Source: a candidate division KSB1 bacterium (GTDB lineage: Bacteria; Zhuqueibacterota; JdFR-76; DREG01). From it: DNA of 13,769 nucleotides. The notes below the pieces were generated by a model. That model did no database searches and was not told the origin of the DNA. It worked only from the letters and a program-made list of their open reading frames with translations. How positions within the stretch are numbered: the first letter of the stretch is position 1; each line of letters begins with the position of its first letter. The stretch is taken from contig JADFJB010000119.1 in the NCBI GenBank assembly GCA_022566355.1, positions 1-13,769 on the forward strand, in the 5' to 3' direction. Shown in pieces: positions 3,884 through 6,963 of the stretch. Made by a program: the position numbers and the translations under genes.

Positions 3884-3919
3884 TTAACTGGTTTCCTTAC
3901 TATTTCTTAAATCTTTTTT

Positions 3920-4016
3920 ACCACAGAGGCACTGAGGCACAGAGATTAAAAAATGCCATAACTGCTTTATATTTGTTCTTTTTATTTTCTCATTTGTAAC
4001 TCTGTGCCTCTGTGGT
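3920..4016. repeat. 97-bp MITE-like element with octamer-built inverted ends
   Basis: The left end (3920-3944) reads ACCACAGAGGCAC, then an extra 8 bases, then AGAG. The right end (4000-4016) is the reverse complement of ACCACAGAGGCACAGAG, so the ends match over 17 bases once one 8-bp unit is looped out. The 55 bases between are AT-rich and have no gene. The same ends bound the GxxExxY element at 6384-6834. The element fills nearly all of the 141-base gap between the large subunit and coxG and could fold into a long hairpin in the operon mRNA. I see no clear target-site duplication. Confidence 0.75.
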
Positions 4017-4024
4017 TATATTTT

Positions 4025-6361
4025 TTATTTATTCCTCGCCTCTTCAAAAATCTCAAAAAGACGGTTAGGGCTTAACGGAATTTCACAGATTTCCAAATTA
4101 AATTGTGATAAGGCATCTTCTACAGCTTGAGCGAACAACGCACCGGTTGGTATTGCTCCGGCTTCGCCTGCGCCTTTTACACCGAGAGGATTAAAAGGAG
4201 AAGGTGTTTCCGTATGGTCAGATTCAATATTCGGCACATCCAAAGAGGTTGGCAGAAGATAGTCCATAAAAGATGCATTCAACAGCTGTCCGTTGTCATC
4301 ATAAATCAATTGTTCATAAAACGAATTTCCAATACCGTGCGCAACGCCTCCTTGAATTTGTCCCTCTAAGATCATTGGATTGATTACCTTGCCACAATCG
4401 TGGACAACGACATATCTTTTTATGTTAACCATCATGGTATCCACATCTACTTCAACAATCATGGCATGTGTACCATTGGCAGTACTGCCACGCTCAGGGC
4501 CAAAATAAGCAGTCGCTTCAAGACCGGGTTCTGTTCCCGGCTTTACGGCGCCACGGAGTGGGTTGGCCAGTTTTGCCAGTTCACCCAGCGAAATGTTTTT
4601 GTCCGGATTGTTTTTGACAAAGACTGATCCGGAATTTAGCTCAAGGTTGCCTTCAGTTGTTTCTAATACTTCACAAGCCAAATTAAATATTTTGTCTCGA
4701 ACTGCTAGCGCCGCAGCATGACAGGCGTTACCGGCTACGACAGCGCCACGGCTGGCAAAGGTTCCGGTGCCCCAGTTAAATTCATTGGTATCCCCGGTCA
4801 TCACTTTTACACTGCTCACCTCGACGGACAACACTTCGGATACAATTTGGGCAAATGAAGTAAAATGCCCTTGTCCCTGGGTGCCAACCCCAGTGGCCAG
4901 GCAAACTTCACCATTTGGATCTATGGAAACCCGTGCGCCCTCATAGGGGCCAATACCCGTTCCTTCGATGTAAGAAACAATGCCAATGCCAAGATGCTTT
5001 CCTTGTGAATGATGTTTTGATTTCTCTTTTATAAATTGGTCATAGCCAATAATCTTCTCGGCTTTTTCGAAACCAGGTTGATAATCACCACTGTCATACA
5101 CTAACGGCTTAAAGTCCTGGAAGATAATTTGATGATTATGAGGAAACTGATCCGGCTTCAAAAAATTCCTCTTGCGAATAACTGTCCGATCAATATTTAA
5201 TTCTTTTGCGGCAAAATCAAGCAGCCGTTCCATAACAAAAACACCGTGTTGGCGGCCTGCCCCTCGAACCGGTGTTACAGTAGTTTTATTGGTAAATACA
5301 GCCTTAAACTCAGAGTAATAATTGGGAATATCATACGGCCCCAAAAGCGTACATTGACTATTGATAGGAACTGTCAATCCATAAGGATCATAAGCGCCGG
5401 TATCATGGATGAATACGTCATGCACACCTAGTATTTTACCTTCTTTTGTTAAGGCAATTTCCGCATCATGGATCTGGCTCCGTTCCTGGGTCGTCGCAAA
5501 AAAGTTTTCTTTCCGATCTTCTGTCCACTTAACCGGCTGTTTCAATTTCATTGATATCCATGGGATCAATACTTCTTCCGGATAAAACATCATAATCTTA
5601 GGACCAAAACCTCCACCGATAAAAGGTGCAATCACCCTGACTTGATTTTGAGAAAGTCCCAGCATTGCCGCAAGGCCATTCCGAATAGGAATCGGTGCCT
5701 GGGTCGTATCCCATATCTTTAATTTCTTACTCTTATCGTTCCAATTCGCAACGACTACGCGATTTTCGATTGCTGCCGCAACACCCCGGTCGTATATAAA
5801 ACGCCGTTTGATAATGCAATCAGCCTGGTTTTTGATCGACTCATAATTGCCTTTTTCCTGAATGACATGTGCTGCCAGATTGGATTTAAGATCATCATGA
5901 ATTAAAGGAGCATCCGGTGATAATGCTTTTTCAATATCCACGACAGCACCATAAGGATCGATATCTACAAAAATATCATCCAATGCATCTTCAGCAACAT
6001 AGCGGCTCTCCGCAACAACGACAGCTATCGCTTCTCCCACGTGCCTGACTTTATCTTTTGCCAATGGGACTTGCGTTCTTTCATGAAAGATCAAATCCTT
6101 GATGGGTGGAGGCGGTACCAACAAGGGTCCAGGTTGCCAATAATCCCCCAAATCTTCAGCTGTGTAAATAGCAATAACGCCCGGTCGTTTAAGCGCTTCA
6201 GAGACATCGATACTGTTGATTTTACCGTGAGCATAATCACTGCGGAGAAAAGCAGCGTGCAACATCCCACTAAGGTTCACATCATCTACAAACAAGGCTT
6301 GCCCGGTAAGCAGCAGCGGATCTTCGTTTCGTAAGATTGGTTTACCGAAGTACTTTTGCAA
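4025..6361 (-). CDS. Molybdenum hydroxylase large (molybdopterin) subunit
   Basis: A 778-residue catalytic subunit of the xanthine oxidase/CO dehydrogenase family, of normal length. It has the a/b-hammerhead N-terminal domain (about 18-140, beginning NEDPLLLTG) and then the two molybdopterin-binding domains. Visible cofactor motifs are GGGFG at 249-253, VRGAGR at 365-370, TQGQGH at 494-499 and KGAGEAG at 729-735. E733 in that last motif is the conserved catalytic glutamate. Form I CO dehydrogenase carries AYxCSFR where this protein has VRGAGR, so it belongs to the form II-like group of uncertain substrates. The start is TTG at 6361: an in-frame stop lies five codons upstream, the N-terminus MQKYFGKPILRNEDP aligns with the family, and AAGAAAG precedes it. 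The neighbouring permease suggests a nucleobase-like or other N-heterocyclic substrate, but this is inference. Confidence 0.92.
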   Translation of the reverse strand: MQKYFGKPILRNEDPLLLTGQALFVDDVNLSGMLHAAFLRSDYAHGKINSIDVSEALKRPGVIAIYTAEDLGDYWQPGPLLVPPPPIKDLIFHERTQVPLAKDKVRHVGEAIAVVVAESRYVAEDALDDIFVDIDPYGAVVDIEKALSPDAPLIHDDLKSNLAAHVIQEKGNYESIKNQADCIIKRRFIYDRGVAAAIENRVVVANWNDKSKKLKIWDTTQAPIPIRNGLAAMLGLSQNQVRVIAPFIGGGFGPKIMMFYPEEVLIPWISMKLKQPVKWTEDRKENFFATTQERSQIHDAEIALTKEGKILGVHDVFIHDTGAYDPYGLTVPINSQCTLLGPYDIPNYYSEFKAVFTNKTTVTPVRGAGRQHGVFVMERLLDFAAKELNIDRTVIRKRNFLKPDQFPHNHQIIFQDFKPLVYDSGDYQPGFEKAEKIIGYDQFIKEKSKHHSQGKHLGIGIVSYIEGTGIGPYEGARVSIDPNGEVCLATGVGTQGQGHFTSFAQIVSEVLSVEVSSVKVMTGDTNEFNWGTGTFASRGAVVAGNACHAAALAVRDKIFNLACEVLETTEGNLELNSGSVFVKNNPDKNISLGELAKLANPLRGAVKPGTEPGLEATAYFGPERGSTANGTHAMIVEVDVDTMMVNIKRYVVVHDCGKVINPMILEGQIQGGVAHGIGNSFYEQLIYDDNGQLLNASFMDYLLPTSLDVPNIESDHTETPSPFNPLGVKGAGEAGAIPTGALFAQAVEDALSQFNLEICEIPLSPNRLFEIFEEARNK

Positions 6362-6383
6362 TTTTGTTCTTTCTTAAAAAGTT

Positions 6384-6834
6384 ACCACAGAGGCACTGAG
6401 ACACAGAGTTTTTTAATCAAATCCACTAATCATTCGTTTAAATCCATCTACTAACTTTGGCACATTAAAATTGATTAACAAACCTAATCTTTTATTAGCA
6501 AGTTTTAAATAGGTTAACAATTGAGCTTCATGAACTGGCAATAAACTCTCTATTGCTTTCAATTCGACGATGATTTCGTTTTCAATTAAAATGTCTATTC
6601 TAAAATCTGAATCTAATTGAAATCCTTTATAATTGATAGGCAATGAAAGCTGCTTTTTATATTTAATTCCTTTAAGATTTAACTCTTTACACAAACAAGT
6701 TTCATATACTGATTCCAACAGACCAGGTCCGAGATTCTTATGAACTTCAATGGATGAATCGAGAATAATTCCGCTTAAACTATTTCTTTCTACTCGATTC
6801 ATTTGTTTTCTCTGTGTCTCTGTGCCTCTGTGGT
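6384..6834. mobile_element. TIR-bounded element carrying a GxxExxY gene
   Basis: The 25-bp ends at 6384-6408 and 6810-6834 are inverted repeats with a single mismatch. Both are built from 8-bp units (CACAGAGG/CACAGAGA type) and begin ACCACAGAG. They enclose only the GxxExxY gene, which fills the element almost end to end. The insert separates the small and large subunit genes, which are usually adjacent or overlapping in this enzyme family. A gene-less relative with the same ends lies at 3920-4016. There is no transposase and no obvious target duplication, so the unit is either mobilised in trans, spread by recombination, or uses its own nuclease-fold protein. Calling it mobile is inference from its ends, its position and its recurrence. 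Confidence 0.55.
6413..6802 (-). CDS. GxxExxY protein (PD-(D/E)XK nuclease-like fold)
   Basis: A 129-residue protein of the GxxExxY family (PDDEXK_3). The defining motif is G27-L-L-E30-S-V-Y33. The nuclease-like core is D70 (in FRIDILIEN) followed by E80-L-K82, the classic D...ExK arrangement, so a metal site is possible. The biochemical function of the family is not established. I prefer the ATG at 6802 (MNRVERNSLSG). The frame stays open to a TTG at 6862, but the extra 20 residues (containing HHRGTETQRK) are only translated repeat. The gene overlaps the run-on end of the small subunit frame by 23 bases and lies inside the inverted-repeat element at 6384-6834. Its 5' end has a truncated duplicate at 6850-6914. 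Confidence 0.85.
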   Translation of the reverse strand: MNRVERNSLSGIILDSSIEVHKNLGPGLLESVYETCLCKELNLKGIKYKKQLSLPINYKGFQLDSDFRIDILIENEIIVELKAIESLLPVHEAQLLTYLKLANKRLGLLINFNVPKLVDGFKRMISGFD

Positions 6835-6963
6835 GAATATTCTTGCCTTTTATGAACTTCAATGGATGAATCGAGAATAATTCCGCTCAGTCTATTTCTT
6901 TCTTCTCGTTTCACTTTCTTTTCTCTGTGTCTCTGTGTCTCTGTGTCTCTGTGTCTCTGTGGT
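6738..6963. repeat. Tandem duplication of GxxExxY 5' end plus octamer array
   Basis: Bases 6738-6834 and 6850-6963 are direct repeats. The first 38 bases of each (6738-6775 and 6850-6887) are identical, the next 27 differ at a few sites, and both then run into the 8-bp array. In protein terms the block encodes the segment ERNxLSGIILDSSIEVHK. In the upstream copy this stops at EVHK, so it is a decapitated second element, not a second gene. The extra octamers in copy two (five against three) show the array length changes. Confidence 0.85.

Follow-up and report, generated by a model that had tools for sequence, protein, structure and literature searches.

The GxxExxY gene was found to be linked to its own inverted repeats, and the short word repeated in these flanking arms tracked the clade of the GxxExxY protein encoded between them. 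Gene and repeats together seem to be selfish DNA of a kind not described before. The reading that we favor, with moderate confidence, is a REPtron-like selfish unit in which a nuclease is combined with its cognate repeats, the enzyme being unrelated to that of the REPtron; the recognition, cutting and copying that this reading contains are inferred.

The GxxExxY unit of the KSB1 window

The window, which is the whole stretch of DNA analyzed (13,769 nt, candidate division KSB1 bacterium), carried the unit at 6384-6834 (about 450 bp). Arm matches are given for the arm model R1, which was built from 42 arms. The features were as follows.

6384-6408, + strand: downstream arm, ACCACAGAGGCACTGAGACACAGAG; R1 match at 6382-6410, 25.9 bits
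6413-6802, - strand: GxxExxY gene with a PD-(D/E)XK nuclease fold, 129 aa, ATG at 6802; assigned by profile matches and an AlphaFold2 model (pLDDT 93.5)
6810-6834, - strand: upstream arm, ACCACAGAGGCACAGAGACACAGAG read in the direction of the gene (the reverse complement); R1 match at 6808-6837, 32.3 bits
6780-7448, - strand: coxS-like [2Fe-2S] subunit gene; the family match stops near residue 155-158, beyond which the frame reads on across the repeats until the stop codon at 6780
4025-6361, - strand: coxL-like molybdopterin subunit gene, on the opposite side of the unit from coxS
6850-6921, - strand: incomplete duplicate of the GxxExxY gene, covering its 5' end, RNRLSGIILDSSIEVHK; 72 nt, 89% like 6738-6809
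6922-6963, - strand: octamer array of five copies, CACAGAGA, upstream of the partial gene copy
3918-4018, no strand assigned: gene-less hairpin with words as in the unit, between coxL and coxG of the same operon; arms at 3920-3941 and 3995-4016

The two arms of the unit were inverted copies of 25 bp with one mismatch. Their inverted-arm score was 22.5, and a score of at least 20 was reached in only 0.7% of 1,674 other ORF windows. Membership of the family was met by the matches of the protein to TIGR04256 (148.9 bits, cut-off 35) and PF13366 (142.2 bits, cut-off 22). The continuation of the coxS-like frame gave a translated tail that came out of the repeat (...PQRHRDTETQRHREKK...), and a tandem duplication of about 112 bp upstream of the unit (6850-6961) contained an arm and the start of the gene. 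The folding energy of the gene-less hairpin was -37.1 kcal/mol (z -7.7 against shuffles). The octamer was rejected as a genome-wide multicopy repeat, since the strict pattern had eight matches in the genome of the window and six of them were inside the window. Elsewhere in the window, positions 1-220 and 1217-1436 formed a direct repeat (95%): part of an NCS1 transporter gene is found a second time where the contig begins, and a Phd/PIN toxin-antitoxin pair (352-974) was located between the two copies; the repeat is possibly a duplication or an effect of assembly.

Nine coxS-coxL junctions, the window's included, were compared (coxL 70-77% similar). The GxxExxY gene was present at three of them (G000, G001 and G056), and the proteins of the two other carriers were 66-68% identical to that of the window by tblastn; the arms of the three carriers were not alike. 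The remaining junctions contained a word hairpin without a gene (G072), several different words (G032), another insert (G040), or nothing (G081, G030 and G013). A special partnership of the gene with the cox operon was ruled out by the other GxxExxY loci, which were at unrelated junctions.

The original prediction, made from the sequence alone, had described ends of 25 bp with one mismatch around a single GxxExxY gene, placed between two subunit genes that normally adjoin, and a gene-less relative in the same operon. All of these held: the neighbors are the coxS- and coxL-like genes, which were 76-152 nt apart in the gene-less relatives G081, G030, G013 and G072, and the relative is the hairpin at 3918-4018. 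Its term octamer ends needs refining, since the words were spaced at 8 to 10 nt depending on the locus, and different protein clades had different words. The duplication at 6850-6961 and the reading of coxS through the repeat were absent from it. It would have been refuted by orthologous operons that all carry the gene without the repeats; this did not come true, with three of nine carrying the gene.

Inverted arms at GxxExxY loci

The arm-gene-arm architecture, across phyla, and the matching of one arm to the other were shown with a set of 80 GxxExxY loci, which were obtained from a scan of named genomes. The peptide pattern GPGLLE used in the scan was biased toward one protein clade, and the locus samples over-represented high-scoring copies. 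The loci came from phyla including Bacteroidetes, Planctomycetes, Acidobacteria, Verrucomicrobia, Chloroflexi, Proteobacteria and cyanobacteria, together with one archaeal bin. Within 200-nt flanks, an inverted-arm score of at least 14 was found at 64 of the 80 loci and a score of at least 18 at 52, compared with 1.3% and 0.8% of the other ORFs in the same loci (n=1,674). When arms were swapped between loci as a control, 16% reached 14 and 5% reached 18. Recognizable arms were missing in about 15-20% of GxxExxY genes.

Each arm consisted of two or three tandem 7-nt words at a spacing of 8-10 nt; in the clade of the window, the word was CRCRRAG after TTYACC. An array of CRCRRAG words was present within 200 nt of the gene at 65/80 GxxExxY loci, 2/30 four-helix-bundle loci and 2/30 GIY-YIG loci. 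The words mostly pointed inward on both sides (57 upstream on the plus strand and 65 downstream on the minus strand, versus 13 and 13), and the sequence read backwards gave 22 arrays versus 242. Both arms had the same spacing pattern at 41 of the 45 loci with arrays in both, where 12 were expected and the maximum in 2,000 permutations was 21. Word identity between the two arms of a locus was 0.92 versus 0.80.

The units were located in gaps between genes of operons. Both neighbors were co-directional with the gene for 50/73 GxxExxY genes and for 71/156 other short genes (p 0.0017). The junctions included leuC|leuD and trpE|trpG (leu and trpE/G named from translated ORFs), hemE|hemN, trpD|trpC, mutA|mutB (small and large subunits of methylmalonyl-CoA mutase), murA|ruvB, flgL|fliW, and ispH|squalene-hopene cyclase. 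The conserved partner gene that defines a toxin-antitoxin or defence module was not found, as the neighbors were unrelated housekeeping genes that varied by locus. Among 72,556 plasmid records, 5 carried a relative of GxxExxY, and among 50,697 phage records none did; spread on plasmids or phages was ruled out by this near-absence. Two loci that preceded seemingly the same gene (wecB by eye; L016 and L038) were rejected as one unit in two places because they are orthologous. One junction was shared by two phyla: in L132 of Cnuella (Bacteroidetes) and L143 of Prosthecobacter (Verrucomicrobia), the unit was located within an apparently split methionine synthase, between its two portions.

An alternative explanation is that the arms act in RNA: a stem in the operon mRNA would protect, process through RNase III, or separate the cistrons, and the gene would be tolerated as part of its loop. 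In its favor are the position of the units in operon gaps and their orientation with transcription, the strong folding of the gene-less hairpin, and the precedent of the intervening sequence (IVS) of 23S rRNA, in which terminal stems of 28 bp around an S23p ORF are cut by RNase III (PMC4990558). Against it, the differences between arms showed no excess of changes that would allow G-U pairing in the sense RNA (112 wobble-compatible versus 101 incompatible, p 0.49), so that the matching is not visibly maintained by an mRNA stem and a process at the DNA level fits better. Selection on the arms as an RNA stem was rejected for this lack of bias, and the match between word and protein clade would be left unexplained. 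We regard the RNA explanation as very unlikely.

The arm word follows the protein clade

The word labels were rule-based, for words ending in RAG or in GAT, and the word classes were set after inspecting the data. The words were compared with a tree of 141 GxxExxY proteins. On one of its two sides (support 97) there were 23 GAT-type words, 10 unclassified words and no RAG word, whereas the other side contained 83 RAG, 5 GAT and 19 unclassified. Three word labels required 27 changes on this tree versus 51 when shuffled. Some of the five GAT exceptions seemed to be misread, for example CACGACGG in L073. Both word types were found within one genome, each with its own protein type, in the genome of the window (RAG at L017; GAT at L286 and L288) and likewise in Flavobacterium sp. 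7A and a Prosthecobacter bin. Since both types occur within one genome, the base composition of the host cannot be the cause of the match between word and protein. These results showed that the arm word tracks the clade of the protein.

The GxxExxY protein

The AlphaFold2 model, built with an alignment of 44 sequences, had a PD-(D/E)XK fold. Its best solved structural match was 4ic1 (SSO0001; Z 9.3 over 104 residues), a Cas4-family protein; lambda-type exonucleases and Holliday-junction resolvases scored lower, and no solved relative was found by sequence search. Residues H21, D70, K82 and Q94 were invariant in the 44 sequences, and E80 and Y98 were conserved in at least 90%. The motifs D, ExK and QxxxY are the set of RecB/Cas4-type nucleases. 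The model thus predicts that GxxExxY is a minimal RecB/Cas4-type PD-(D/E)XK nuclease with intact motifs, and its nuclease activity is inferred. It resembles the Cas4, RecB-type and lambda exonuclease enzymes (e.g., 4ic1) in fold and in the motif order H, D, ExK, QxxxY, but differs from them in having at most 22% identity, only 129 residues, and no partner gene for a helicase, a Cas protein or a recombinase.

Orthologous copies of the gene in Flavobacterium had a dN/dS of 0.06-0.12, which showed that it is under purifying selection. A tandem pair of GxxExxY domains was observed within a single open frame of about 320 aa in two genomes (G035:C37 and G057:C225).

Cassette turnover at Flavobacterium junctions

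Two junctions were compared among Flavobacterium species, with sets that were the 30 best matches each and not a random draw. The leuC-leuD junction was readable in 29 species. A GxxExxY unit was present in five of them, a unit with an apparent four-helix-bundle ORF in one further species, and gene-less hairpins with other words in some others. On the leuC+leuD tree, these states required 15 changes versus 15.9 when shuffled, i.e., they were scattered like shuffled labels; the species with the four-helix-type unit (L332) grouped with a GxxExxY carrier (L337) with support 100/99.

At the miaB junction, GxxExxY was present in 16 of 30 species; its proteins fell into three clades, and these had three different words (CRCAAATT, CRCGAATT and RGATTAA). 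The word fitted the protein tree without exception, requiring the minimum of 2 changes, which none of 200 shuffles reached, whereas on the host gene tree it required 12 changes versus 14.3 when shuffled. In the pairs L366/L367 and L362/L386, the flanking genes were 90-97% alike and the cassettes were wholly different. Replacement of cassettes at fixed sites was thereby shown. Most units at miaB started with T-runs and GCCAC (or ACCGC) and ended with GTGGC (or GTGGT) and A-runs. The junction comparisons placed the unit ends at TTTTGCCAC...GTGGCAAAA; no clean empty site was present among them. A target duplication, as is typical of an insertion sequence or MITE, did not turn up, nor did an excised unit or a recent copy elsewhere, which counts against the favored reading; the clearest changes were replacements at an unchanged site.

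Both junctions (leuC-leuD, L328-L357; miaB, L358-L387) were almost never plain, and word hairpins of several languages were present in nearly every species. The two sites may be hot spots, or a spacer may be needed there.

Short-tract homologous recombination between species could also have swapped cassettes at one site, and it leaves the match of word and protein across many sites and phyla unexplained. Another alternative is a homing-like drive, in which a rival allele or an empty junction is cut by the nuclease and then repaired with the nuclease's own cassette as the template, so that cassettes replace each other at fixed hot spots. The different cassettes at the same junctions in close relatives (leuC-leuD and miaB) and the host-like state of the genes flanking the cassettes speak for this drive. 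However, the junctions have no common sequence and share only their position in operon gaps, which makes a sequence-specific target in an empty site hard to see, and plain allelic recombination between species yields the same picture. A homing-like drive is therefore considered very unlikely.

Gene-less arrays and hairpins

GxxExxY genes were present in 52 of the 59 genomes examined, with at most 17 matches each, and many repeats occurred without a gene. The genome of the window had 68 R1 array matches and 8 GxxExxY matches, and several hairpins of about 150 bp with related loops were found on its different contigs. Gene-less arrays near a unit carried the word variant of that unit (29 loci; GC-matched permutations, p 0.0005), which showed that the nearby hairpins are of the unit's own dialect. 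Across the 59 genomes, the counts of arrays and of GxxExxY genes were moderately correlated (rho 0.40, p 0.0016, uncorrected for kinship), compared with 0.08 for four-helix-bundle counts. No GxxExxY gene was detected in one genome (G046, 85% complete) that had 47 word arrays, and the repeats may possibly outlive the gene there. In nine genomes, the gene was present and RAG arrays were absent, partly because the words differ in them. The 120 or more arrays of G002 were rejected as proof of recent spread, as they are inside a larger dispersed repeat.

These gene-less copies bear on a third alternative, in which the word hairpins are the real elements, moved by other host or mobile machinery, and the GxxExxY genes are cargo between them. 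The excess of hairpins over genes in the genome of the window, the arrays of G046 and the presence of four-helix-bundle and GIY-YIG genes surrounded by word hairpins of other languages all favor it. On the other hand, every gene family uses a language of its own (65/80 versus 4/60), and the word follows the protein clade across phyla and inside one genome, a match to the wrapper that cargo would not have; in addition, the active site is kept and the protein is under purifying selection. The cargo explanation is considered unlikely, though less so than the RNA stem or the homing-like drive.

That gene and ends travel together, as originally predicted, was supported by the arms at most of the 80 loci, by the word that tracks the clade, and by cassettes that differ as a whole. 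The prediction would also have been refuted had repeats and GxxExxY genes been unlinked; they were linked, though repeats outnumber genes. The nuclease-fold protein, proposed as a candidate for acting on the ends, remains a candidate, with the co-variation and the confident PD-(D/E)XK model in its favor and the action itself inferred.

Comparison with known systems and other repeat-gene families

The closest likeness was to the REPtron (RAYT/TnpA-REP with REP/REPIN; PMC3116915, PMC8266576), in which a chromosomal gene is bounded by inverted repeats and the repeats are also dispersed as gene-less hairpins, a layout that the GxxExxY units share. In RAYT/REP systems, the protein groups co-evolve with their repeats (PMC8266576), and GxxExxY units met this criterion. 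Like the GxxExxY units, REPtrons are mostly inherited vertically and are rarely on plasmids. The criterion of an HUH Y1 transposase was not met: GxxExxY is PD-(D/E)XK by profile and by fold, its activity being inferred only, and its arms consist of tandem 7-nt words at a spacing of 8-10 nt, in contrast to the single palindrome with a GTAG-type tag of the REPtron. By analogy, the GxxExxY unit would work like RAYT/REP systems, yet it is no member of them because its enzyme is unrelated.

The IVS of 23S rRNA (PMC4990558) is similar in size (about 430-450 bp) and likewise has one small ORF of unknown function and inverted ends of about 25-28 bp; relatives of its S23p ORF outside rRNA are also in inverted word repeats. 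The criterion of an S23p ORF in rRNA was not met by the GxxExxY unit, which encodes another protein family, is located in operon gaps (coxS/coxL) and has a spacing of 8-10 nt instead of heptads. The TAACTGA-type heptanucleotide arrays of Beggiatoaceae and cyanobacteria (PMC4679880) are also tandem short words in gaps by start codons with a scattered phylogenetic distribution. Unlike the GxxExxY words, they have a 7-nt period and other words, and are apparently the language of the four-helix-bundle genes; no gene is tied to them in the sections of PMC4679880 that bear on them.

Other small gene families were also observed among repeats. Four-helix-bundle/S23p genes (TIGR02436; L147-L176), with 21 matches in the genome of the window, had inverted tandem heptads such as AGTGATGAGTAATGAG, TGAGGTTAAGGTTAAG and TCAGTTATCAGTTATC, and the arm score was at least 14 at 19 of 30 loci. 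Small GIY-YIG genes (L177-L206) were often enclosed by palindromic repeats, for example TGTCATTCCCGCGAAAGCGGGAATCCAG or TTCGACTCCGCTCAGG, forming a third family with its own repeat type. In one locus (L080:3236-4062), two CACAGAG arrays at a distance of 800 nt surrounded a GIY-YIG/T5orf172-type gene and not a GxxExxY gene.

In the open-access literature searched, which leaves out subscription papers and NCBI curator notes, the words were unnamed in bacteria, and GxxExxY was mentioned in passing in two papers, without a role.

Proposed mechanism and significance

In the REPtron-like reading, the unit consists of an arm, the nuclease gene and the inverted arm, with the word fixed by the clade of the protein. 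It has no vehicle of its own and occupies gaps between co-transcribed chromosomal genes, probably relying on the host operon for its expression. The nuclease would most likely recognize the arms, probably as a hairpin or a single strand. Cutting at the arms may then lead to the copying of arm-bounded segments, with or without the gene, into other gaps, and gene-less hairpins such as that at 3918-4018 would be the non-autonomous form, mobilized in trans. Recognition, cutting, copying or transposition, and the role of the enzyme, rather than a host process, as the mover of the unit are all inferred.

A bolder reading, which we consider slightly more likely to be wrong than right, is that GxxExxY units form a class of selfish element in their own right that extends across the bacteria. 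A stand-alone RecB/Cas4-type nuclease would recognize inverted arrays of the DNA word specific to its clade and would spread itself and gene-less hairpins through operon gaps. The class would be part of a broader set, each with a small gene and its own repeat language, to which the four-helix-bundle (S23p) genes with their heptad words and the small GIY-YIG genes with their palindromic repeats would also belong. Such a set would account for a large part of the short repeats between bacterial genes that have no explanation so far.

For annotation, coding sequences that start with HRGTETQRK or RHRDTETQR should be taken as translated repeat; the original prediction had already pointed to starts of the former kind. 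The link between the protein and a word-type repeat gives a first testable function to the GxxExxY family, which is common in environmental genomes and has no known role, and it supplies an enzyme for a very common kind of intergenic repeat. The co-variation of DNA word and protein, with three clades and three words at a single junction, offers a rare chance to read a recognition code.
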